Assembly (NCBI GenBank): GCA_031281735.1
Contig: JAITEZ010000245.1
Span: 1-36,507 of the forward strand
DNA: 36,507 bases
Direction: 5' to 3'
DNA from: Deltaproteobacteria bacterium
GTDB lineage: Bacteria; Desulfobacterota; Desulfarculia; Adiutricales; Adiutricaceae
Shown here: in pieces, positions 4,742 through 36,464 of the stretch
Layout: each line of letters begins with the position of its first letter
Position numbering within the stretch: position 1 is the stretch's first letter
The notes under the pieces: model-generated
Seen by the model: the letters and a program-made list of their open reading frames with translations, nothing else
The model's database searches: none
What the model was told of the DNA's origin: nothing
Translations under genes and position numbers: made by a program

Positions 4742-6361
4742 GTGACACTCGACTCTAGTTTAAAGGTAAAGATGCCTGAGACAGGTATAGTCATTAGACG
4801 ATCAGGAAAGTATCAAACTGTATTCAAGAAAATCAGCTCGTTTCGGACTCCTGGAAAGCTTTATCCTGATGGACAACGGGTAACCATTGGAAAACTTGAT
4901 AAAGATACCGGCTTGTTGGTACCAAATAGTAACTATTGGAAGCTTTATCATGAAGAACCACCCTGGAATGAGACTATCTATAGATCAGTAATATCTATAG
5001 GGCCTGCATTTTTAGCTGACCATACTTTGAACGCTTTAGGGATCACCAGTATCCTAGACGAATGCTTTGGCCAGGACAGAGCACGGAAGATCAGAACCGC
5101 TGCTCTGTACATGATCTCACGGGGAAACGTCTTTGATGACGTGGAAAACTTCTGTGATGGATACACCATAAACGGGGCGCACCTTACTTCTCAGTCATCA
5201 TCAGTACTATTCGCCACAATCACACATGACGAGCGCATGGCTTTTTTCAAAAAATGGTCCAAGGTACATCAATTTAATTCCCATCTGGCATATGATGTAA
5301 CATCATTCTCCACTTATGCCAAAGGCATAGAAGATAGTGAATATGGATACAATAGGGATTGCGAAAGGTTACCGCAAATCAACTTTGGATGCTACCTTTC
5401 CCAGGCAACTGCACTTCCCATGTTTTATGTCACATATCCAGGCTCTATAATTGATAAGTCTCATCTCACGTTCATGATGGCTTACAATGAGGATCTAGGC
5501 ATATCAGACATGGGATTCGTTTTGGATAGAGGCTTTTGTAGCAAAGATAATATTATATACATGGTAGAAAATGGATTGGATTTCTATATGGGCATTGAGT
5601 CACGCCTTAAGATAACACAGGAGGCGATTGAATCTGTACGTCCAGTAATTCTTAAGTTCGATAACTGTATCGACCATGAAGGCATTTTCGGAATAGCTGT
5701 TCCAGGCAAATACTATGGTTTTGATTTAAATCTGCATGTCTACTACAATCCTGATATGGCTGATGATCAAAGGAAAGACTTATATCGTCTAATTCAATCT
5801 GAGGAAGAGACACTATCCCAACTCAAAACCATTTCCCACGAACAAGCTAAACATTTTTCCCGACATTTTGTCATTGATAGGGATGATAATGGTCTTTTTA
5901 AATATTCCTACAATACTCATAAAATAGATAAAAAATCATTAAATTTTGGATACTTTAGTATTCTAACCAACACCACTGTCGATAGCAAACAGCTTCTTTC
6001 TATTTACCGGCGACGGGATACCATAGAGAAGTGTTTTGATGATCTAAAGAACCACATCGACATGAAACGATTGCGTACACATGTTACGGAAACAACCGCT
6101 GGCAAGATGTATTGCTCATTCATTGCGTTGATTTTGATCTCAGAAATCGGAAACAAACTAAGGCCGCTATTACAGGAGAAAGCGTGGAGCAAGAAAGGCG
6201 TAATAGCTGAATTAGAAAAAATCAAGGTACTAACGTCCACTAGTGGCAAGAGGCGATTAATGAACCCGCTAACGAAGACACAACGAATGATATTTCAGCC
6301 GTTCGGGCTGAAAGAGAGTGACTTGGAAATATACGTCAAGACCGAGGCGAAATCAGTGTAG
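4742..6361 (+). CDS. IS1634/IS4-superfamily DDE transposase
   Basis: 539 aa intact; candidate DDE residues in YDVTSFSTY, FVLDRGFCSKDNI and YRRRDTIEKCFDDLKN; stop codon TAG lies in the right IR. Confidence 0.9.
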   Translation: MTLDSSLKVKMPETGIVIRRSGKYQTVFKKISSFRTPGKLYPDGQRVTIGKLDKDTGLLVPNSNYWKLYHEEPPWNETIYRSVISIGPAFLADHTLNALGITSILDECFGQDRARKIRTAALYMISRGNVFDDVENFCDGYTINGAHLTSQSSSVLFATITHDERMAFFKKWSKVHQFNSHLAYDVTSFSTYAKGIEDSEYGYNRDCERLPQINFGCYLSQATALPMFYVTYPGSIIDKSHLTFMMAYNEDLGISDMGFVLDRGFCSKDNIIYMVENGLDFYMGIESRLKITQEAIESVRPVILKFDNCIDHEGIFGIAVPGKYYGFDLNLHVYYNPDMADDQRKDLYRLIQSEEETLSQLKTISHEQAKHFSRHFVIDRDDNGLFKYSYNTHKIDKKSLNFGYFSILTNTTVDSKQLLSIYRRRDTIEKCFDDLKNHIDMKRLRTHVTETTAGKMYCSFIALILISEIGNKLRPLLQEKAWSKKGVIAELEKIKVLTSTSGKRRLMNPLTKTQRMIFQPFGLKESDLEIYVKTEAKSV

Positions 6362-7663: not shown

Positions 7664-8794
7664 CTAGCGGCGCCTCTCTGTCTGACCGGTAACGGCCTTC
7701 CTCGGGCCGATCAGGCTTACCACGGTCTCGAGGTCGGCCAGCGGCCTTGCGCGCCAGTTCCTGGCGATGAAGGTGGAGAGCAGATGCTCGACCTTGTTCC
7801 ACTTGGATGTTCCCGGGGGGAAATGGCACACGCTGATAGGCGTCCCGATATCTTCGCACAGCCGCTGCAATTCCAGATCGAACGCCCCCGACCACGGCGA
7901 GTCGATTCCCCCGCAGTCGGCTGCGATCATCAGCTCCGTGCATCCTCCGTACGTCTTCCCGCCCGCCTCATGCCACCATCTCCTTATCGACTCCACGGCG
8001 AACAGAGGCCTTTCATGACCGGCCACGGTAGTGACTGAACGTTGACGGCCGACAGTCTCCGCTGTCCCGAACGGGACCGATTCCAGCGGCCCAGGCGCGG
8101 GAAAGGCGAGGCGCTCGGCCCCCGCGGGACGGCCCTTCGGCCCCCGCCTCCCGCCGGCGTCGGGAAAGCCCTCAGGCATCTCCCTCTTCCTCGTGGCGAT
8201 GGAAAGCACCGGGTTGTTCTGACGGATCATCTTCTCCGCCATCCGGTTGATGAATTCGAACTGCTTTTCCCGGGACGAGTTCCGGTTCCTCTCGCTGGAT
8301 TTCCTGCTTCCCCTGAGGCAGTAGCCGAGGCCGTGCAGCAGGTGATCCACGAGGCAGTTGCTCGCGGTGAAGCCGCGCTTACCGAGTTCCGCCGACAGTT
8401 CCCTGGTGCTCTTGCAGGTCCACCTCAGCGGTGAATCCCTGTTGCCCCTGGAAACGGGATCAATCAGCGACTCCAGGGCCTCGAGCAGGCCGGGCTGTGA
8501 GATCTCGGCGGGCTTCCGCCCGCCCCCGGGCTGCCTTATCCTGTAATGCCCCGCCGGGTCGGGGTCGGCCCTGGAATCGGCGATGCCCCTGGCCACGGTC
8601 TTGGGTGACATGCCAGTCACTCTGGCGACCAGAGAAATGCCGCCGTAGCCTATTGATTCGGCCGCGGAACCCGCCCATATCCTTCGCAGGCGCTCGTCTT
8701 GCAGATGAGGGCCGATGAGGGTGAACTGTCGGATTATCATGTCCTCTACGTCCAGCATGAGGTCGATAGTAGATCGCCATGGCAAACAAGTCAA
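7664..8794 (-). pseudogene. Decayed ISAzo13-family transposase
   Basis: HFPPGTSKWNKVEHLLSTFIARNWRARPL, FAVESIRRWW and ELMIAADCGG motifs; centre is scrambled and the C-terminus ends early (VVSLIGPRKAVTGQTERRR). Confidence 0.8.
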
Positions 8795-9989: not shown

Positions 9990-11501
9990 ATGGCACCTTC
10001 TGAACTTGAGGTCATCAAGAACCTGGTCAAGGCGGCCGAGTCTGGCAACGCCGAGGCCCAGTGCATCCTCGGCAAGCTCTACTACCTCGGCGAGGGGGTC
10101 GCCCCGGACAAGCGGGAGGCCCTCAACTGGTTCGAGAGATCGGCCGAGGGCGACTGCCTGGACGCCCAGTACATCCTGGGCAAGGTCTATCTTGAGGGCT
10201 TCATAACCCCCGTAGACTACGACAAGGCCCGCCATTGGCTCTCCCGGGCAGCCGAGCGCAGGCATTCCCTGGCCGAGGCGGATCTGGGCAGGATGTTCCT
10301 GAACGGGAGCGGGGTCCCCGAGGATCCGGCCGCGGCCTACCGCTGGTTCGAGCAGGCGGCCCTGGACGGGAACGTCTCGGCGCAGTACAACGCCGGTCTC
10401 ATGTGCCTGGGCGGATGCGGCACCGCAGCCGACCCCGCCAGGGCCTTCGCATGGTTCAAGAGCGCGGCCCTGGAGGGGGACGTCCCCTCGCGCTTCAACG
10501 TCGGGCTTATGCTCTTCACGGGCGAGGGGGCGGCCCAGGACTACCTGGAGGCCAGGGAGTGGTTCGAGAAGGCGGCGGGGGACGGGGACGCCGCCTCGGA
10601 GTTCTACCTCGGGCTCATGCACGAGGAGGGGCGGGGAGTCCCCCGCGACGGCTTCAAGGCCCTGGAGTATTACAAGAAGGCCTCGCTCAAGGGCTACTCC
10701 AAGGCCCAGTACTGCCTGGGTCTGAGGTACCTGAACGGGGATGGCATCGCTCAGGACGAGGAGGAGGCCTTCTACTGGCTCGAGAAGGCGGCCGACTCCG
10801 GCAACAGCTACGCCAGCTTCGAGCTGGGGCTCATGCATCTCTACGGGCGTGGCATCCCTCAGGATCACGAGGCGGCCTTCCAGCGTTTCTCCCGGGCGGC
10901 CGAGGCGGGTCTACCCGTGGCCGCCGCCAACCTCGGCTCCCTGTACCTCAAGGGGCAGGGGGTCGGCCAGGACTACGGGAAGGCCCTGCTCTGGTCGCGG
11001 AAGGGCGCCGAAGGCGGTGTGGGCGAGGCCATGCTCAACCTGGGACTCCTCTTTTTCTACGGCAAGGGGGTCAAGCGGGACTACGCCATGGCCCTGGAAT
11101 GGTTCCGGAAGGCGGCGGCCGAGGGCGCGCGGGAGGCCTACTACGAGTTGGGCCTCATGTTCTTCCAGGGGGCAGGGGTGGCCCTCGACTACGAGCAGGC
11201 CTACGAGTATTTCTCCAAGGGCGACGCCGAGGGCGAGATCCAGTCCTCCCTTTACGCTGGCCTGCTCATGCTCAACGGCTACGGTGCCCCCATGGATCGC
11301 GAGCGGGGGCTCGCCAAGGTCCGCGCAGCCGCGGAGCTGGGGCTGGCCGATGCCGAGTATTTCATGGGGGTCATCCACATCCAGGGCCTGGGGGTGGAGC
11401 CTAGCGAGGAGGAGGGCCTCCAGTGGCTCCGCAAGGCGGCCGCGCAGGGGCACGCCCGGGCCGCCGAGGAGCTGGCTTCCCGGAGAGGGCAAGTCAACTG
11501 A
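9990..11501 (+). CDS. Sel1-like repeat protein (13 consecutive 36-aa repeats)
   Basis: Regular units such as AQYxLGxxYLxGxGVxxDxxxAxxWFxKAAExG from NAEAQCILGKLYYLGEG to LADAEYFMGVIHIQGLG. An in-frame GTG at 9966 is an alternative start. Confidence 0.92.
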   Translation: MAPSELEVIKNLVKAAESGNAEAQCILGKLYYLGEGVAPDKREALNWFERSAEGDCLDAQYILGKVYLEGFITPVDYDKARHWLSRAAERRHSLAEADLGRMFLNGSGVPEDPAAAYRWFEQAALDGNVSAQYNAGLMCLGGCGTAADPARAFAWFKSAALEGDVPSRFNVGLMLFTGEGAAQDYLEAREWFEKAAGDGDAASEFYLGLMHEEGRGVPRDGFKALEYYKKASLKGYSKAQYCLGLRYLNGDGIAQDEEEAFYWLEKAADSGNSYASFELGLMHLYGRGIPQDHEAAFQRFSRAAEAGLPVAAANLGSLYLKGQGVGQDYGKALLWSRKGAEGGVGEAMLNLGLLFFYGKGVKRDYAMALEWFRKAAAEGAREAYYELGLMFFQGAGVALDYEQAYEYFSKGDAEGEIQSSLYAGLLMLNGYGAPMDRERGLAKVRAAAELGLADAEYFMGVIHIQGLGVEPSEEEGLQWLRKAAAQGHARAAEELASRRGQVN

Positions 11502-11622
11502 AGGGCGCGGGCCGGCGCTTGCGGGGGGTGCCGCAGTCCGGGGGACACTGGGCATGCCCTGGTCGCCGGCGGACGCCGCGCGGGCCCGAGGCACCGGCAG
11601 ACGCCGGGCGGGAGAGTCGCCC

Positions 11623-12528
11623 ATGAGGGATCCCAGACATGTCGCCATCACCGGGGCCTCCGGAGGCCTGGGGAGGGCTCTCGCCCTCGAGTACGCCCGG
11701 CCAGGGATGGCGCTCTCCCTGTGCGGCAGGAACGCCGAGTCCCTGGCCCGGACGGCCGGGCTCGCCAGGGGGAAGGGGGCGGAGTGCTTCGAGGCGCTCT
11801 TCGATGCCAGGGACGCCGAGGCTCTCGTGGGCTGGCTCGCCGTCTCCGATCGCCGGGCCCCGCTGGATCTCGTGATAGCCAACGCCGGCATCTGCCGCGG
11901 GGTGGGCCCCGACGGCCTCGAGGATCCCCGCGACGCGGTGGACACCCTCCGCGTCAACGCCGAGACGGCGATCCTCACCTCGCTCTGCGCGGCCAGGATC
12001 ATGCGCACACGGGGACGCGGCCAGATAGCGGTCATAAGCTCCCAGGCGGGCCGCGTGCCCCTGACCTTCACCCCAGCCTACGCGGCCTCCAAGGCCGCCG
12101 CCCGCTCCTACGCGCTCTCCCTCCGGGACGGACTGGCGGCGCAGGGCGTGGAGGTGACGGCGGTGAGCCCCGGGTACCTCAGGAGCCCCATGCAGGAGAC
12201 CTTCGTGGGCGGGCTCATCCGGGCCTGGCCGGCGGAGCGGGCGGCCCGCCGCATCGCCTCTGCCCTCCGGGGGAACCCCAGGGAGATCCGCTTCCCCCTC
12301 CTCATGAACCTCCTGGTGTGGGCCTTCCAGTTCTGCCCCCGCTTCCTCGCGCCCCCGCTCCTGAGGTCCTTCAGCTTCCGTTGCGAGCCGCCCTCCGGGT
12401 CCGGGGGAGGGAAGCCGGCCCAGGGAGCGGCGGGCACGGCGGCAGGGGATCCGGACGCCCCAGGCGGCGGGACGTCTCTCGGGGACGGTAGCGGATCAGG
12501 GACGGGGGCTGAGCCTTTCTCAGGTTAG
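11623..12528 (+). CDS. Short-chain dehydrogenase/reductase (SDR) family protein
   Basis: MRDPRHVAITGASGGLGRALA (Rossmann), NAG, and YAASKAA active-site motif. Confidence 0.9.
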   Translation: MRDPRHVAITGASGGLGRALALEYARPGMALSLCGRNAESLARTAGLARGKGAECFEALFDARDAEALVGWLAVSDRRAPLDLVIANAGICRGVGPDGLEDPRDAVDTLRVNAETAILTSLCAARIMRTRGRGQIAVISSQAGRVPLTFTPAYAASKAAARSYALSLRDGLAAQGVEVTAVSPGYLRSPMQETFVGGLIRAWPAERAARRIASALRGNPREIRFPLLMNLLVWAFQFCPRFLAPPLLRSFSFRCEPPSGSGGGKPAQGAAGTAAGDPDAPGGGTSLGDGSGSGTGAEPFSG

Positions 12529-14777: not shown

Positions 14778-16070
14778 ATGGCCTCTCGCTACAGAATCTG
14801 CATAATGACCGAAGGCCGGGGCCCCCTGCGGATCAGGGGGCTCGTGATCCCGGCCTGGGTGCCTGTCGTCGCTGTCGCCTTTACCATCTGCCTGGCGTCG
14901 GCCCTCTCGATCTATGCCTTCCACGCCAACCGGGCCATCTCGGGCTTCGAGGACCGGAGCTTCGATCTGGAGATCCTCCAGGCCGAGAACGCCGCCAAGG
15001 AGCTGCAGGTGGCCGCCCTGACGGAGCGCCTGAGCGCGCTGGAGGGCCAGGTGGAGGTTCTCTCCGACCGGGACAGGGATCTCAACCTCCTCACACGGGA
15101 CTTCAACCGCCAGCTGGGCCTCCCGGAGGGGACGGAACTCGCGGCGGTGTGGCCGGAGCTCGTGAACACCGTGGCATGGACATGGGGGGGCCAGCAGGAC
15201 CAGGGCGGCGTGAGCCGGGAACCCGGCGGCCCCGCCTTGCCTGCGGCGAACCCGGTGACGGTGCTCCGCGCCCTCCACAGGGATCTCGACCGCCTGGAGG
15301 AGGGGGCGGCCGCGACCGGCTTCGCGCTTTCCGAGCTCTCCTCGGCCCTCATGGGCTCCCAGAACCTGCTCGCTGTGACACCTTACGCCAACCCCGTGCC
15401 AGGGGGCAAGGTCTCGTCCCTGTTCGGCTATCGCTCCAATCCCTTCGGCAGATCCCTCGACTTCCACGCTGGGCTTGACCTCGCCGCCCCCACCGGCACC
15501 CCGGTCTACGCCCCGGCGGACGGCACGGTGCTCTCCTCGGACTGGTCCAAGAGCGGCTACGGCCTCATGATCGCCCTGGATCACGGCTACGGGCTCACCA
15601 CCCGCTACGCCCACCTCTCGGAGAGCCTGGTCGCCCCCGGCGACAAGGTCGCCCGCGGCGACCTCATCGCCCGTGTCGGCTCGACCGGCCGCTCCACCGG
15701 CCCCCACCTCCATTACGAGACGTTGCTGGGGGAGACGGCGGTGGATCCGCAGACCTTCCTCCAGGCCGAGCTCGAGTACCAGACCGCCTATCTGGAGGAG
15801 AAGCGGGGTGCCCGGGCCCTCGCGGCCGGTCTCCACGCGCCCGGGGGCATGCAGATGGCGACCGACGCGGATTCGGCCGCCCCCGTCCCCGACGGGACCG
15901 CCGCCGGTACGCCCGCCGCCGCGGCGGCAGCCCCCGCCAAGGCGCCGGCCCAGGCGGCGGTGGCCGGGGGCAGGCCCGCCCGCCGCGAGATCAAGCCTTC
16001 CCGCAAGGCGACCCGCCCCAAGCCGGCCAAGGCGAGGGCGGCCCGCCCCAGGCAGGCCCGCCGCGGATGA
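14778..16070 (+). CDS. M23 family (LytM-type) metallopeptidase, membrane anchored
   Basis: N-terminal TM, coiled-coil region, SLFGYRSNPFGRSLDFHAGLDLAAPTGTPVYAP...YGLTTRYAHLS...TGRSTGPHLHYE; basic C-terminal tail. Confidence 0.9.
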   Translation: MASRYRICIMTEGRGPLRIRGLVIPAWVPVVAVAFTICLASALSIYAFHANRAISGFEDRSFDLEILQAENAAKELQVAALTERLSALEGQVEVLSDRDRDLNLLTRDFNRQLGLPEGTELAAVWPELVNTVAWTWGGQQDQGGVSREPGGPALPAANPVTVLRALHRDLDRLEEGAAATGFALSELSSALMGSQNLLAVTPYANPVPGGKVSSLFGYRSNPFGRSLDFHAGLDLAAPTGTPVYAPADGTVLSSDWSKSGYGLMIALDHGYGLTTRYAHLSESLVAPGDKVARGDLIARVGSTGRSTGPHLHYETLLGETAVDPQTFLQAELEYQTAYLEEKRGARALAAGLHAPGGMQMATDADSAAPVPDGTAAGTPAAAAAAPAKAPAQAAVAGGRPARREIKPSRKATRPKPAKARAARPRQARRG

Positions 16071-28555: not shown

Positions 28556-29155
28556 ATGAGACCGCGCCACATAGCGCTAGCCCTGGCGCTGGCCTTCCTG
28601 TCCGCGGCCTGCGCCTCCGGGCCTTTCGATCCAGGAAGGCTCGAGGACATGAAACGCCGCAGCGAGTACACGGATCTGGCCGCGGCCTGTCTCTCCCACG
28701 ATGAGATCTGGTTCTTCAACGAGGCGGGGGAGAGCCTCCGCATCGACGCTCTCAACGTCACCCCCGAGCTCCTGGCCGCCGCGCGGGCTCGCTGGTCCGG
28801 CGACCGCACCTTCACGGATACCCTCGCCCGCTGGCTCCCCAAGGGCGAGGGGCGCTTGGTCCTCCTGGGCCTCTTCAACAGGAGGTTCAAGAAGGACGAC
28901 TTCCTCAAGACCGGGAGCTACCGGGCGCGGCTCGTGCTCCCGGACGGCAGGGGGATAGATCACGACTTCGCCGAGGAGGCCCAGGCGCGGTTCCTAGCCG
29001 ACTACTTCCCGGCATTCAACCACTGGGCCAAGGTCTTCGCGCTCCACTTCCCGGCCGACCCCGCCGCCCCCGCCTCGCTCGAGGTCCGCTGGCCCTCCGG
29101 CGACAGGACCCTCCCCCTCAAGCGTCCCGCCGGGGCCCCGGCCCCGGCTTCCTGA
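28556..29155 (+). CDS. Putative lipoprotein of unknown function
   Basis: MRPRHIALALALAFLSAACASG lipobox; AGAAGGAGAC RBS; 5 bp before the next CDS. Confidence 0.75.
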   Translation: MRPRHIALALALAFLSAACASGPFDPGRLEDMKRRSEYTDLAAACLSHDEIWFFNEAGESLRIDALNVTPELLAAARARWSGDRTFTDTLARWLPKGEGRLVLLGLFNRRFKKDDFLKTGSYRARLVLPDGRGIDHDFAEEAQARFLADYFPAFNHWAKVFALHFPADPAAPASLEVRWPSGDRTLPLKRPAGAPAPAS

Positions 29156-29159
29156 CCAG

Positions 29160-31439
29160 ATGCCTCCCGGCGCAACCCCGAGTTACGTCATCGGCCCCGA
29201 CCCCGCCGCCGCGGGGGGGCCGCCGGACGGCCCGCTGCGGCGGCGCCCGGCCTCCCCGGCGCGGCTGGCCTGGATCCTCTCTGCCCTTCTCGCCGCGGCC
29301 ATCCTCCTCGGCGCCCTGCCGCCCGCCGCCCGGGCCGCCGTCCCCAACGGCCAGGCGCCGGACGGCTGGCTCCCGGACGCGATCCTGGATCCCGGCGGCA
29401 ACCCCGGCCTGATCCTCGTGGTGGACAAGGCCCGCCAGGAGCTGCAGATCTATCTCCACGACGGGCGGGGGCGGATAATCCTGGAGAAGGTGATCCCCTG
29501 CTCGACTGGCATGGCCAGGGGCGACAAGCTCGTCCGCGGCGACAGGAAGACCCCGGACGGGTTCTACGTCTTCAACCAGAAGCTCCTGTCGGCGGAGCTG
29601 CCTGAAATCTACGGCATACTCGCCTACCCCATGGACTACCCCAACTTCTGGGACCGCGTGAGCGGCCACGGCGGGGACGGTATCTGGACCCACGGTGTGA
29701 ACAAGCCGCTGGTGGACTACGACTCCAACGGCTGCGTGGAGCTCTTCAACCACGACATTGCGGCCCTGGAGGACCGGATCCGCCTCTACGACACCCCCAT
29801 CCTCGTCTACGAGGAGGTGCGCTACGCGCCCCCGGAAGCCCTCCGGGAGGAGGCAGGCAGGGTGAGGGCCTTCGTCGAGGGCTGGAGGAGGGCCTGGGCC
29901 GGCAAGGATCACGAGACCTACGCGTCGCTCTACGCCGAGGACTTCGTGAGCTCCGACGGCATGGACCGCGGCTCCTGGCTCTCCCACAAGCGGAACGTCG
30001 CGGCGGGCTACCGGAGCATCCAGGTGGAGGTGGAGGGCCTGAGGATCTTCCGGCACCGGGATGTAACGGTGGCCACCTTCGTCCAGCGCTACCGCGGCGA
30101 CACCCGCTACTCATCCTCGGGAGGCAAGCGGCTCTTCCTGAGGCCCGCCGGGGACACCTACCTCGTCGCCGCCGAGGAGTTCGAGGGCGAGAGGCCCCCC
30201 TTCCCGGACAAGCGCCTGGGCCTCGAGGAGAAGCTCGCCGCCCTCACGACCCCCCCCCTGTCGGTGGCCTCCTTCGCCGCCCCCGTGGCGGCGGCCGGAG
30301 CGGGTTCCATCCTGCCCGGCGCCCCCGCTCTCGCGGTGGCCTCGGCGCCCGCCGCCGCAGGGGCGGACGGCGCCGGGGACGAGCTCGCACGCCTGGAGCT
30401 CGAGACACGGGCCAGGGGCCTGGGCCCCGGCAGGCCCGCCCCCGCCCCCCCCGCCGCTGGCGCCGAGGACGGCCCGGAGATCCCTGCCGCCGGCCCCGCC
30501 CCGGGGATCCCCGCCGGTGCCGGGACCGGGGCAGGGCCCGGGGCCGATGCCGCGGGCGGCCCCGAGACGCCGATACTCATGGCGTCCCTCGATCCGAGGG
30601 TCGCGGGGGGCGCGGTGCCGGACGCCTCCGGACCCGTTCCGGGGGAGGCCCCCGGCACAACTCCCGCCGCCTCCCTGGGCGGGGCGGGATCCCCCGCGAT
30701 GCAGTCCCCGGCAGGCCCCCGCATGAGCTCCCTGAGCGTACCCGCCTCGACCCAGAACCCCACGGTCTCCGGTTCCCTGACCCCCCCGCCCCCCGAGATC
30801 GAGGGCGGCGGGATCACCGCCCGGACGCCTCCGCCGGGGGACGCGGCCGAGGCCTCCGCGGACGTCCAGCCCTCCCGCGCCTCCCACCGGGTCACGGCCT
30901 CCGCCAGCGCCGGGGATCGCCCCCCCGTCCGCACCGGGGCGGGTGCCGCCGCCCCGGGCGGGGCCGGGGGCGGCCCCGGACCGCCGGACGCGCTCCTGGC
31001 CTCCCTCCTGCCGTTCGCGCCCCCCGCCGGCGCGGCGGCCGCCCCGCCGCCCGTCCCGCCCGCCGCCGCCGGCCCCGAGGCCGACCGGGCCGCGATCCTG
31101 GGGCTCCTCGCCGACTGGGCGGAGGCCTGGGAGGAGAAGGATCTCGACTCCTACTTCTCCTTCTATGCCGAGGACTTCCTTTTCCCCGACCGCGACATGG
31201 GCCGGGAGGCCTTCGTGAGGTACCGCTCGCGCCTCATCCGCGGCGCGGGGGTCATCGACGTGGAGCTGGAGGGGCCCGAGATCAGCGTGGACGGGGACCG
31301 CGCCGCGGTCAGCTTCGTGCAGCGCTACGCGAGCGACGCCTACAGCGACTCCGGCGAGAAGACGCTCCGGCTCGCCCGGAGGGGCGGGGCCTGGCGCATC
31401 GTCTCAGAGACCTTCCGCGTCTCCGGCGGTAGGGGGTGA
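29160..31439 (+). CDS. L,D-transpeptidase/L,D-carboxypeptidase (YkuD) with two NTF2/Cds6-like domains (Csd6/Pgp2-like)
   Basis: YkuD region LILVVDKARQELQIY...GDRKTPDGFYVF...GIWTHGVNKPLVDYDSNGCVEL; NTF2-like repeats VRAFVEGWRRAWAGKDHETYASLYAEDFVSSD... and ILGLLADWAEAWEEKDLDSYFSFYAEDFLFPD.... Confidence 0.88.
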   Translation: MPPGATPSYVIGPDPAAAGGPPDGPLRRRPASPARLAWILSALLAAAILLGALPPAARAAVPNGQAPDGWLPDAILDPGGNPGLILVVDKARQELQIYLHDGRGRIILEKVIPCSTGMARGDKLVRGDRKTPDGFYVFNQKLLSAELPEIYGILAYPMDYPNFWDRVSGHGGDGIWTHGVNKPLVDYDSNGCVELFNHDIAALEDRIRLYDTPILVYEEVRYAPPEALREEAGRVRAFVEGWRRAWAGKDHETYASLYAEDFVSSDGMDRGSWLSHKRNVAAGYRSIQVEVEGLRIFRHRDVTVATFVQRYRGDTRYSSSGGKRLFLRPAGDTYLVAAEEFEGERPPFPDKRLGLEEKLAALTTPPLSVASFAAPVAAAGAGSILPGAPALAVASAPAAAGADGAGDELARLELETRARGLGPGRPAPAPPAAGAEDGPEIPAAGPAPGIPAGAGTGAGPGADAAGGPETPILMASLDPRVAGGAVPDASGPVPGEAPGTTPAASLGGAGSPAMQSPAGPRMSSLSVPASTQNPTVSGSLTPPPPEIEGGGITARTPPPGDAAEASADVQPSRASHRVTASASAGDRPPVRTGAGAAAPGGAGGGPGPPDALLASLLPFAPPAGAAAAPPPVPPAAAGPEADRAAILGLLADWAEAWEEKDLDSYFSFYAEDFLFPDRDMGREAFVRYRSRLIRGAGVIDVELEGPEISVDGDRAAVSFVQRYASDAYSDSGEKTLRLARRGGAWRIVSETFRVSGGRG

Positions 31440-31442
31440 GCG

Positions 31443-32459
31443 GTGGACATTCCCGGATGCATCAAGGAACCCGCCGTCCGCGAGCCGGTCAAGCGCCTGC
31501 ACGTCCTCGTCATGACGGACGGAGGCTCCACGCGCAGGTTCTCGCTTTCCACCACCTTCCTCTGGATCATAGTTTCCATAACCCTCCTGGTGTTCCTGGC
31601 CCTGGGGGTCCTCTCGTACCTCGCAAGCTCCCTGCTGGTGGACAACAGGAGGCTCCAGACCCGCTACGACTTTGAGATCAGGCGGCTGGAGACCCAGGCG
31701 TACAACAGGACGATCCCCGACACGGGCGAGGCGGCGGGGCGGATACTGGAGAGGCTGGATCAGGCGGCGCTGAGCGCACGGGACGATGCCCCGGATCTGC
31801 CCGATCCGGTCCCGGCCGCCCCCGACGGCGGGGCGGTGTCGGTGGACGGGGGCGGAGGGGCGGCCGAGGCCGGCGCCCCCCCCCCCCCCGCGGGATCCGC
31901 GCAGGCGGCCCCGGCCGGGCGGAACCCCGCCGGGCAGGTCACCGCCGGGGACGGGCCGGACGCCGACCCCGCCCAGGCCGAGATCCCCGGGGCGCCGGCC
32001 GCGGGCGAGGACGGGGACGGTGTCGCCGCCCCCCCGGGCGCCGCGGGACCCGAGGAGGAGGCCTGGGCCGCCCTCCACAAGCGCCTCGCGCTGCCCTCCG
32101 GCGTCCCCGTGCTGGACGTGGACGAGTTCAGGTTCTCCCCTGACGGCTCCTTCACCTATTACCTGAAGAAGATTACCGAGCCCGGCGACCGCCTACGCGG
32201 GCGGGCCATCACGGTGTTCTCCGTGCGGGACCGGGGCGGCAAGGTGGCCCTGGTCTCCGACCCCGAGATAGATCTGCGGAACCCCTCCCAGGGCTGGGAC
32301 CGGGGCGGCCGCTACAACATCATCGCCTCCAAGGTATACAAGGGCCGCATCCGCATCCCCCAGGGTGGCATGGCCCTCGCGGCCGAGGTGCTGGCCTGGG
32401 AGGAGGACACCAAGGCGCTGGTCTTCCTCAAGAGGGTGCCCTTGGAAGGGGGGGAATGA
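31443..32459 (+). CDS. Uncharacterised single-pass membrane protein with P/A/G-rich linker and C-terminal domain
   Basis: GTG start; cytoplasmic RLHVLVMTDGGSTRRFSLSTTF, one TM (LWIIVSITLLVFLALGVLSYLASSLL), C-terminal FRFSPDGSFTYYLKKITEPGDRLRGRAITVF.... Confidence 0.75.
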   Translation: MDIPGCIKEPAVREPVKRLHVLVMTDGGSTRRFSLSTTFLWIIVSITLLVFLALGVLSYLASSLLVDNRRLQTRYDFEIRRLETQAYNRTIPDTGEAAGRILERLDQAALSARDDAPDLPDPVPAAPDGGAVSVDGGGGAAEAGAPPPPAGSAQAAPAGRNPAGQVTAGDGPDADPAQAEIPGAPAAGEDGDGVAAPPGAAGPEEEAWAALHKRLALPSGVPVLDVDEFRFSPDGSFTYYLKKITEPGDRLRGRAITVFSVRDRGGKVALVSDPEIDLRNPSQGWDRGGRYNIIASKVYKGRIRIPQGGMALAAEVLAWEEDTKALVFLKRVPLEGGE

Positions 32460-32460
32460 C

Positions 32461-34614
32461 ATGACGGGGTCAGTCAGGGCCCTGCCGCCGCCCCGGCGGT
32501 TCCCGGCGGCCGCCGCGGTAGCCCTCGCGGCGCTGGCGCTGGCAGCCGGGCCCGCCGCGGCGCCCCTCCCGGCCGCGCCCGAGCCCCTCGCCGGATACCG
32601 CTCCCCCGCGCCCGCGGGGGGCGCGGATCGCCAGCACATCGTCTATTTCCGGGGGACGGAGCAGGAGCTGGAGATCTACAAGATCTTCGGGCGGCGCGAG
32701 GGGCCCACCGTCATGATCCTGGGCGGCATACAGGGGGACGAGCCCGGGGGCTTCCTTTCGGCCGACCTATACGTGGACACGGCCCTGGAGCGCGGGAACC
32801 TCATCGTGGTGCCCCGCGCCAACTTCAAGTCCATCATCTCCTTCGATCGCGGCACCCTGGGCGACATGAACCGGAAGTTCTCCGAGGGCGTCCCCGGGCC
32901 CGCGCCGGACCCCGACCCCGACCAGGAGGCGGTGCGCGTCATCAAGAACCTCATGGCCGAGGCGGACGTGTTCCTGAACCTCCACGACGGCTCGGGCTTC
33001 TACCGGCACTCCTGGGAGTCCGACATGGCCAACCCCAGGCGCTACGGCCAGTGCATCATCGCGGACGCGGAGGAGTACGCCGACCCCAGGACGGGGCGTG
33101 TCCTGCGGCTGGGGCGAGACGCGCGGCGCGCGGTCGAGATGGTCAACCGCGAGATCCCCGAGGACATCTACAAGTTCCGGTTCTCCAACCACGACACCCT
33201 CTCCGCCGACACCCGGCACGCGGAGCAGCGCGGGAGCGCCACCTTCTACGCGCTCACCGCCCTGGGCATCCCCGCCTACGGCATCGAGACCTCCAAGCAG
33301 CTCCCCAGCCTGGAGATGAAGATCCGCCAGCACAACCTGGCGGTCAACGCCTTCATGGAGATCTACGGGGTGGTGCCCGAGAGCCCGCGGGTCAGGCTCG
33401 AGCCCCCCGAGCTGAGCTTCATCGTGGTCTCCGTGGAGGGCCATCCCGCCATGGCCGTGCGCGACGGCGAGACCCTCCTCGTGCCCGGGGGGGCCCTCGT
33501 GGAGATCCTCCACGTGGCCTCCAACTACTCGCGGGGCCTCTCCGCGGACGTGCTGGGCCTGGGGGGCCTCAACGACATCGGGACGCCGCTCGCCGTGAAC
33601 GCGCCCACTGCGGTGGTCGCCCGCCGCGACAACATCCGGATAGGCCGGGTGGGGCTGGGGATCCTGCCGGGAGACGCCCAGTCCCCGCCGCGAGTTGTGG
33701 CGGCCCCGGGCGCCGCCGGGACGGCCGGTGCTGTGGCCGCGGCAGGCTGGCTCCCCGGCCGTCCTTCGCCCGGAACCCCCTCCGTCCCCGCGGCGGGCGC
33801 GGCGGGTACGGCTGCGGGGACGGCCGGGGCCGGATCCGCGGCGGCGGGGTTGCCTGCGGGTGCGGCCGGGCCCGCGGCTGGGCCTGGCATCGGCGGCGCC
33901 GTCACGGGCGACGGCGGCGCGGGCGTTTCCGGGGCGGGGGCCGCCCCCCCTTACGCCAGGCCACAGGTGAGCGGGCCCCTCCCCCCTCCCGGGGGGGAGG
34001 GGGCGGCCGGATCCGGCGGCGTCACGGCCTTCATCCTGGAGGTGGACGGCCGGCCCGTGAGCCTCGCCCCGGGCGGGATCCTGAGCGTCCGCCAGGGGGC
34101 GCGGATCAGGATGGTGGACATCTCGAGCCTCTCGCCGCTGCCTGCCTCCGTCGTCATGAACTTCCGGGGCTTCGTGGGCAGGGCCGGGGACGCCACCGGC
34201 AACGACCGTGGCACCGAGTGCGACACCGCGCGGGATCTCATCGCCCGTTTCGCCACGAGAGGCCAGAACGGCTTTCCCGTCTATCAGCTGGGGGCCGAGG
34301 ACGGCAAGGAGATCCTCGCCCGGGCCTTCGTGGAGGTGGTCTCCCTCCAGCTTGAGAGCATCGTGTTCGAGAGGGAGGGGAAGCAGAAGATCCTCCGCCT
34401 CGGTGAGCGCTGGCACGTGCCTGCAGGCGCCCGGGTGATTCTGAAGGAGGTGCGGCTCCTGGGCGGCCTCCCCCTGGAGGAGCCCAGGCTGACCCTCGGT
34501 GGCAGGCCGCTGCCGGTCGGACTGCCGCAGACGCTCTTGATGCCGCAGATCGCGGTGTCGCTAGCGGTCTTCTCCAAAGGCGATCTCGCCGGCAAGGTGG
34601 TGCTCTACCCTTGA
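32461..34614 (+). CDS. M99 family metallocarboxypeptidase (Csd4/Pgp1-like), secreted
   Basis: Signal peptide; MILGGIQGDEPGGFLSADLY, GDMNRKFSEG, LNLHDGSGFYRHSW, AYGIETSKQLPSLEMKI match remembered Csd4 motifs. Confidence 0.88.
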   Translation: MTGSVRALPPPRRFPAAAAVALAALALAAGPAAAPLPAAPEPLAGYRSPAPAGGADRQHIVYFRGTEQELEIYKIFGRREGPTVMILGGIQGDEPGGFLSADLYVDTALERGNLIVVPRANFKSIISFDRGTLGDMNRKFSEGVPGPAPDPDPDQEAVRVIKNLMAEADVFLNLHDGSGFYRHSWESDMANPRRYGQCIIADAEEYADPRTGRVLRLGRDARRAVEMVNREIPEDIYKFRFSNHDTLSADTRHAEQRGSATFYALTALGIPAYGIETSKQLPSLEMKIRQHNLAVNAFMEIYGVVPESPRVRLEPPELSFIVVSVEGHPAMAVRDGETLLVPGGALVEILHVASNYSRGLSADVLGLGGLNDIGTPLAVNAPTAVVARRDNIRIGRVGLGILPGDAQSPPRVVAAPGAAGTAGAVAAAGWLPGRPSPGTPSVPAAGAAGTAAGTAGAGSAAAGLPAGAAGPAAGPGIGGAVTGDGGAGVSGAGAAPPYARPQVSGPLPPPGGEGAAGSGGVTAFILEVDGRPVSLAPGGILSVRQGARIRMVDISSLSPLPASVVMNFRGFVGRAGDATGNDRGTECDTARDLIARFATRGQNGFPVYQLGAEDGKEILARAFVEVVSLQLESIVFEREGKQKILRLGERWHVPAGARVILKEVRLLGGLPLEEPRLTLGGRPLPVGLPQTLLMPQIAVSLAVFSKGDLAGKVVLYP

Positions 34615-35114: not shown

Positions 35115-36464
35115 ATGAAGTTCCGCATCCACACCATGGGCTGCAAGGTAAACCAGGCCGAATCAGCGTCCATGGCCGCGAGGCTCGAGGCGGCCGGGTT
35201 CCTGCCCTGCGGGGACGGCGAGCCGGGCCTCGTGGTGCTCAACACCTGTTGCGTGACGGGGGCTGCCGAGAAGGAGGCCTACCGGATCCTCAGGCGCCTG
35301 AGGCGCGAGCATCCCGGGGCCAGGGTGGTGGCGGCGGGCTGCCTGGCCCATCTCGCGCCGGACAGGCTGGCCGCGGGGGGGCTCTCGGATCTGGTGCTGG
35401 GCAACTCCTGGAAGGGCGAGCTGCCGGATCTCCTGGATCTCCCGGACGGCACGGCGCTTGTCGGGGGCGGCCCGGAAGGGGGCTCCCCGGGTGCGGCCCG
35501 CGCGGGCGGCGGGAAGGGGCCTGGTGCCCCCGCCAGCCCCGCCCCGGCGGTCCCCCGGGGTCGGACCCGGCTGTTCCTCAAGATCCAGGATGGCTGCTCG
35601 CGCACCTGCGCCTACTGCGTCATCCCCTCCGTCCGGGGCCCCTCCCGGAGCCTCCCCCCGGAGGCCGTGCTCGCGGGGCTCAGGGCGGCGATGGAGCAGG
35701 GGGTGGGCGAGACGGTGCTCACGGGGGTGCACCTGGGGTCATGGGGGTCGGATCTCCGGCCCCGCTCGAGCCTGCCCGCCCTCCTGGACGCGGTGGAGAG
35801 CGAGCTCGCCCCGGACCCGGGGCGCTTCCGGCTGCGGCTCAGCTCGCTCGATCCCGGCGAGGCCCTGCCTCTGCTCCCGGCCTTCCACAGGATGCCGTTC
35901 CTGGCGCCGCACCTCCACCTCCCCCTCCAGGCGGGGTCGGAGCGTGTCCTGAAGGCCATGGGGAGGCCCGCAGGCCTGCGCGGGTTCCGGGAGGCGGCGG
36001 AGGCCTTCGCGGGGGCCTTGCCGGGCGCGTCCGTGGGCGCGGATCTCATAGCGGGCTTCCCCGGGGAGACCCCGGAGGACTTCGCGGAGGGGTGCGCCGC
36101 GGTCGACACCCTTCCCCTCTCCTACCTCCACGTCTTCCCCTTCTCGGGGCGCCCCGGCACGCCCGCGGCCGTCATGCCGGGCCAGATCCCCCTGCGGGAG
36201 AGGGCGCGGAGGGTCTCCGAGCTCAGGAGGATCGACCGGGCCCTGCGGGAGGCCTTCCTGGCGCGCTCCCTGGGGCGGGAGCACCTGGCGCTGGCGGAGG
36301 TGGGGGTTCACCGCGGGTCAGGGCGCATGAGGGTCCTGACCGGAAACTATCTCCGCGCCCTCCTCCCCGGGGGCGCGGGGCCGGCTCCCGGAAGCCTCCT
36401 GAGGGTGCGCCTGGGCCCAGCCCGCAACCCCTGGGGCCTCACCGAGGCCGAGCCGTGCCCGTGA
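35115..36464 (+). CDS. mtaB: tRNA (N6-threonylcarbamoyladenosine(37)-C2)-methylthiotransferase MtaB
   Basis: MKFRIHTMGCKVNQAES, VLNTCCVTGAAEKEAYR, radical SAM CSRTCAYC, VGADLIAGFPGETPEDF. Confidence 0.93.
   Translation: MKFRIHTMGCKVNQAESASMAARLEAAGFLPCGDGEPGLVVLNTCCVTGAAEKEAYRILRRLRREHPGARVVAAGCLAHLAPDRLAAGGLSDLVLGNSWKGELPDLLDLPDGTALVGGGPEGGSPGAARAGGGKGPGAPASPAPAVPRGRTRLFLKIQDGCSRTCAYCVIPSVRGPSRSLPPEAVLAGLRAAMEQGVGETVLTGVHLGSWGSDLRPRSSLPALLDAVESELAPDPGRFRLRLSSLDPGEALPLLPAFHRMPFLAPHLHLPLQAGSERVLKAMGRPAGLRGFREAAEAFAGALPGASVGADLIAGFPGETPEDFAEGCAAVDTLPLSYLHVFPFSGRPGTPAAVMPGQIPLRERARRVSELRRIDRALREAFLARSLGREHLALAEVGVHRGSGRMRVLTGNYLRALLPGGAGPAPGSLLRVRLGPARNPWGLTEAEPCP

Follow-up and report, generated by a model that had tools for sequence, protein, structure and literature searches.

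Peptidoglycan stem peptides are shortened from tetra- to tri- to dipeptides by characterised relatives of the enzymes described here (PMC8938487, PMC10151779). Bd1075, an LD-carboxypeptidase of Bdellovibrio bacteriovorus, generates cell curvature; according to the paper that describes it, there is no known mechanism by which a protein could be directed to a single lateral wall (PMC8938487). On the cytoskeletal side, the cytosolic hairpin of LmdC binds bactofilin (PMC10945521), and the cytosolic N-terminus of Csd5 binds CcmA, whose described complexes in Helicobacter pylori include either Csd5 and MurF or Csd7, Csd1 and Csd2, and not the trimming enzymes (PMC9507126). Here, these systems are compared with a gene cluster in the window, by which we mean the whole 36,507-nucleotide stretch of DNA analysed; it comes from the genome assembly of an uncultured bacterium of the Adiutricaceae (3.96 Mb in 418 contigs, 86% complete). 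The enzymes encoded by the cluster are of known kinds; the part that appears new is the conserved operon that unites them with a transmembrane (TM) protein and bactofilin, and a literature search by title, abstract and term found no paper on such an operon.

Gene cluster and enzyme assignment

Four open reading frames (ORFs) were recovered on the forward strand, encoding a lipoprotein (28556-29155, 199 aa), a YkuD protein (29160-31439, 759 aa), a bitopic membrane protein (31443-32459, 338 aa) and an M99 carboxypeptidase (32461-34614, 717 aa). They are separated by gaps of 4, 3 and 1 bp, and AAGGAG precedes the lipoprotein ATG in the junction DNA. The initial annotation had described the cluster as four closely spaced, co-directional genes for a lipoprotein, a YkuD enzyme with NTF2-like domains, a single-TM protein and an M99 carboxypeptidase, and each of these assignments was borne out. 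In Pfam, gene 2 matched YkuD (E=1.2e-12) and Cds6_C (E=3.7e-33) and gene 4 matched Peptidase_M99 (E=1.7e-32), which places both proteins inside the families proposed for them; we regard the two enzyme types as near certain. Gene 1 encodes a lipobox Cys at position 19 and gene 3 a single hydrophobic segment close to the N-terminus, and neither has a Pfam domain or a trusted match in NCBIfam or PDB sequences.

The gene downstream of the cluster (35115-36464, forward strand), named MtaB-like from its sequence alone, is a conserved neighbour in the family and is not needed for the module. Elsewhere in the window, two transposase genes of the DDE_Tnp_1 and ISAZ013 types (4742-6361, forward strand, and 7664-8794, reverse strand) lie in the first third, and a short-chain dehydrogenase ORF (10741-12528, forward strand) has about 300 residues ahead of its domain and may reflect a wrong start or a fusion.

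The YkuD catalytic domain of the gene 2 protein (residues 85-214, encoded at 29412-29801) contains His178 and Cys192, and it is followed by a Cds6_C/NTF2-like domain (29862-30176), a long low-complexity linker and a second domain of the same kind (31095-31409), both copies scoring above the curated cut-off. The active-site His is present in 60 and the Cys in 61 of 64 YkuD homologues, the remainder being gaps. As judged by comparison with solved structures, the best-scoring relative was 7o21 (Bd1075; 8.9e-46, over residues 53-341), followed by 4xzz (Csd6; 4e-23) and 6xj6 (Pgp2; 5e-21), the first two entries being described in PMC8938487. Csd6 of H. pylori and Pgp2 of Campylobacter jejuni share the combination of YkuD and Cds6_C and the Cys/His active-site pattern with the gene 2 protein, but they score below Bd1075 and possess a single NTF2 domain each (PMC8938487). 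The Csd6/Pgp2-like label given earlier therefore stood with respect to domain content, whereas the protein is closer to Bd1075. The latter has the same YkuD LD-carboxypeptidase fold and a C-terminal NTF2 domain, yet only one such domain, whereas the window protein has a second behind the linker and shares its operon with genes for TM and M99 proteins. By analogy, the gene 2 product is predicted to be a periplasmic LD-carboxypeptidase that converts tetra- into tripeptides.

Gene 4 scored 113 bits with the Peptidase_M99 model against a Pfam cut-off of 27, exceeded the cut-off in the genome search too, and matched PDB entry 4wck, which we take to be Csd4, at 3.5e-29. Its catalytic domain is encoded at 32689-33363. 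All tested catalytic residues of Csd4, taken from PMC4220969, are present: Gln91, Glu94, Arg130, Asn137, Arg138, His175 and Glu276 correspond to Csd4 Gln46, Glu49, Arg86, Asn93, Arg94, His128 and Glu222, such that the QxxE...H metal motif and the catalytic Glu are kept, and the equivalents of Arg86, Asn93 and Arg94 reside in a retained RG..GDMNRKF stretch. All of the 51 M99 sequences compared have the equivalents of Glu94, His175 and Glu276, and 44 of them have Gln at the Gln91 position.

The gene 4 product had also been called Csd4/Pgp1-like, and this holds for the catalytic domain, the metal motif and the Arg86, Asn93, Arg94 and Glu222 equivalents that it has in common with Csd4 (H. pylori) and Pgp1 (C. 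jejuni); its length of 717 residues, long linker and C-terminal region set it apart from both. The label fits less well at the level of subgroups. In a midpoint-rooted M99 tree that contains no Helicobacter sequences, all YkuD-adjacent proteins, the window's included, form one clade together with two unlinked proteins of family f25, and the other stand-alone M99 proteins fall outside it. These include the highest PF17033 scores, several being about twice as high or more. Because of the clade and these scores, the window protein is assigned by sequence to a YkuD-linked subgroup and not to the stand-alone, most Csd4-like group. M99 relatives were searched for in viral contigs, and none was found.

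Conservation of the cluster in the family and the phylum

Within the window's family, the order (lipoprotein)-ykuD-TM-M99 was seen in every neighbourhood read on a long enough contig, usually with the mtaB-like gene next, and a TM homologue was found in 33 of 36 sampled relatives. The initial annotation had treated joint occurrence of these genes across genomes and a conserved neighbourhood as marks of a genuine module, and both were observed. Among 297 genomes of the phylum, M99 was above the cut-off in 55, Cds6_C in 74 and both in 54; that is, Cds6_C occurs in 54 of 55 M99-positive versus 20 of 242 other genomes (Fisher p=3e-41, to be taken only as a guide since the genomes are not independent). 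When 40 M99 loci of the phylum were read, ykuD was adjacent in 30 of them (17 families), with a TM gene in between in 23 (12 families); ykuD-M99 loci having neither the TM protein nor a fused copy of it are L104, L109, L114, L120 and L135. The cluster arrangement is not a product of chance: some 30 genomes of the window's family have it, and the ykuD-M99 adjacency recurs in 17 families of the phylum.

Several individual cases were recorded alongside these counts. Genome G089 has six Cds6_C matches, spread over several contigs, and no M99 match. In family f37, locus L128 carries pyrE-like, ykuD, TM and M99 genes, and loci L194 and L195 carry a TM gene between pyrE-like and tsaD-like genes (names from sequence) with YkuD and M99 not beside it; the TM gene at the latter two loci is probably a relic of the operon.

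The lipoprotein is distributed more narrowly. Its full-length relatives were found only in the window's family, and Cys19 is nearly invariant in 25 relatives, where it follows a signal-like stretch. Matches in other families were weak, mostly covered the C-terminal half, and belonged to other lipoproteins with a common FP-F--W motif. A wider lipoprotein family with this motif, of some 215-240 aa and with no Pfam name, is encoded at L185-L188 and is weakly related to the window lipoprotein. As far as sequence relatives tell, the lipoprotein is a family-specific addition to the cluster. Comparison of its profile with solved structures gave nothing convincing, and a fold search with its model (three sequences, mean pLDDT 52) gave no match at E<=0.001.

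The bitopic protein and its linkage to bactofilin

The protein encoded by gene 3 consists of a predicted cytosolic beta-hairpin, RLHVLVMTDGGSTRRFSLST (31494-31553), a TM helix placed approximately by hydropathy (31554-31631) and a periplasmic C-terminal domain (32043-32456) that appears strand-rich in a low-confidence model. The N-terminus in 56 homologues has two strands, the first of them hydrophobic, separated by a turn that usually contains Gly and followed by the TM helix. This pattern is also present in LmdC-like M23 proteins that these genomes encode, one of them on the forward strand of the window at 14778-16070 (hairpin, TM and M23), about 12 kb upstream of the cluster and upstream of fliF. 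Alignment of the two hairpin profiles with hhalign, in which some 30 residues were compared, gave P=6e-6 and a probability of 68%. In a rank test, M23 N-termini outscored 116 other bitopic N-termini (p=6e-6), and this test is conservative in that several of the high-scoring "controls" are themselves TM or M23 homologues. The similarity of the hairpin to that of LmdC-like proteins is only moderately significant at the sequence level. The hairpin profile also picked up an ATP-synthase protein at L155, which was discarded as a false positive. An M23 gene and the module share one contig in genomes G011, G018 and G023, and the window's M23 peptidase may belong to the same shape system as the cluster.

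Points of resemblance to the LmdC-bactofilin pair of Hyphomonas and Rhodospirillum are the short cytosolic beta-hairpin, predicted for the TM protein, the single TM segment and, for many homologues of the TM gene, a neighbouring bactofilin gene. In LmdC the hairpin and TM segment are joined to an M23 peptidase, whereas the TM protein has a periplasmic domain that gave no enzyme match and goes together with YkuD and M99: no Pfam domain was found in the protein, hence no M23 peptidase domain and no SH3 match. Its family profile gave nothing convincing against solved structures, and a model of the periplasmic domain (three sequences, mean pLDDT 48) found no match at E<=0.001 in a fold search. At L101, L116 and L126, in two families, this domain is fused to the YkuD C-terminus, where it replaces the second NTF2 domain. 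The fusion points to physical cooperation of the TM protein with YkuD.

Bactofilin genes were found in or beside the operon at 14 of the 30 ykuD-linked M99 loci, in 8 families. The gene directly follows M99 in f5, f11, f81 and f85 and directly precedes ykuD in f21, f54 and f57, all seven confirmed with Pfam PF04519; in f44, the order is ykuD-TM-M99-M23-bactofilin, the bactofilin here being matched by our own profile and sitting where a Pfam match lies. Genomes of some 3 Mb mostly hold between one and a few bactofilin genes, so that such adjacency is far beyond chance. In f5, a family of the same class as the window's (L097-L100, L118, L189, L190, L209), the bactofilin of the operon is short and divergent, and a normal copy is located elsewhere in the genome. 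TM genes also pair with bactofilin where M99 is absent (L189, L190) or YkuD is absent (L198, L199, L200, L208, L209); L204-L207, L210 and L191 were left out of these counts, having been chosen because bactofilin had already been seen nearby.

A TM profile search over the whole phylum returned full-length relatives mostly beside YkuD/M99 or bactofilin, and its weaker matches were limited to the hairpin, TM and coil; those read were either M23 proteins or short ORFs (about 100 aa) next to bactofilin. At L204, L205, L206 and L210, the short ORF has no part besides hairpin, TM and coil, immediately adjoins a bactofilin gene, and is a possible stand-alone bactofilin anchor. Within the family of the window, bactofilin is encoded outside the operon, and the single copy of the window genome is on another contig; a few family genomes have no detectable bactofilin, those assemblies being mostly incomplete. 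The cluster is thus not the fully self-contained module that had been suggested, since its bactofilin is encoded elsewhere and its lipoprotein is confined to the family. Nevertheless, as its relatives often adjoin a bactofilin gene, the TM protein is probably a plug that links the trimming enzymes to the bactofilin skeleton.

Discussion

The initial annotation had suggested that the two unknown members of the cluster could be scaffold or regulators, and for gene 3 this idea gained ground from three sides: its linkage to bactofilin, a cytosolic hairpin like that of LmdC, and the fusion to YkuD. On these three lines of evidence, we infer that the TM protein is a Csd5-like adapter coupling bactofilin to the trimming of tetra- to tri- to dipeptides. 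H. pylori Csd5 is likewise bitopic and non-enzymatic, with a periplasmic domain and a cytosolic contact to bactofilin of the type proposed here; its periplasmic part is an SH3 domain that binds peptidoglycan, and the likeness drawn here is one of architecture. More specifically, the TM protein may found a family of non-enzymatic transmembrane adapters, in which an LmdC-like hairpin plugs bactofilin into Csd6/Csd4-type enzymes and thereby directly positions YkuD and M99; we consider the odds of this to be about even.

Our main reading, to which we assign a probability of roughly 0.7, is that the cluster is a cell-shape operon of trimming enzymes plus a bactofilin adapter, the activities, binding, asymmetry and effect on shape being what we infer for this organism. 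The YkuD-NTF2 protein would act in the periplasm as an LD-carboxypeptidase stripping D-Ala from tetrapeptide stems, and M99 would next take meso-DAP off the resulting tripeptides to leave dipeptides, in the order Csd6 then Csd4 (Pgp2 then Pgp1). The short cytosolic beta-hairpin of the bitopic protein would dock on bactofilin filaments, with its periplasmic domain holding or positioning the YkuD enzyme. Trimming by YkuD and M99 would then be restricted to a single side, or to one zone, of the wall, wall growth would become asymmetric, and the cell would bend. The lipoprotein would be an accessory peculiar to the family and might serve as an outer-membrane anchor or as an activator.

Stem trimming could instead serve the wall in general, in its maturation, in recycling or under stress, and have no part in shaping, with bactofilin acting as a positioning device at division sites or poles, for example. 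Bactofilins do serve non-shape roles as well, but the characterised relatives Csd4, Csd6, Pgp1, Pgp2 and Bd1075 all determine shape, and in other lineages the operon itself contains bactofilin, in f44 also M23; we consider this alternative unlikely. To a role in flagellar wall remodelling, in which the cluster would thin the peptidoglycan for flagellar assembly, we give very little credence and have set it aside: fliF-fliG-fliH and a methyltransferase gene do lie upstream of the cluster, both here and in several relatives, yet this neighbourhood was seen in the window's family only, and elsewhere ykuD-TM-M99 adjoins unrelated genes.

The activity of the YkuD protein itself might also differ from our prediction, since YkuD is a mixed family in which some domains are transpeptidases or amidases. 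Were it an LD-transpeptidase or a DpaA-like amidase, as a weak NCBIfam DpaA match (22 bits versus a cut-off of 365) might hint, the operon would regulate cross-links or lipoprotein attachment. This is distinctly improbable, given that the protein is paired with a tripeptide-needing M99 in nearly every M99-positive genome and that Bd1075, Csd6 and Pgp2, to which it is closest among proteins of solved structure, all have NTF2 domains and act as LD-carboxypeptidases (PMC8938487).

Taken together, the operon joins the two trimming enzymes with a membrane protein and, in eight other families, with bactofilin as one conserved unit. It gives a likely role to an unannotated TM protein family found across the phylum. 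For the question of how bacteria limit trimming to one cell side, the operon offers a concrete route, open to testing, by which the cytoskeleton could reach the enzymes.
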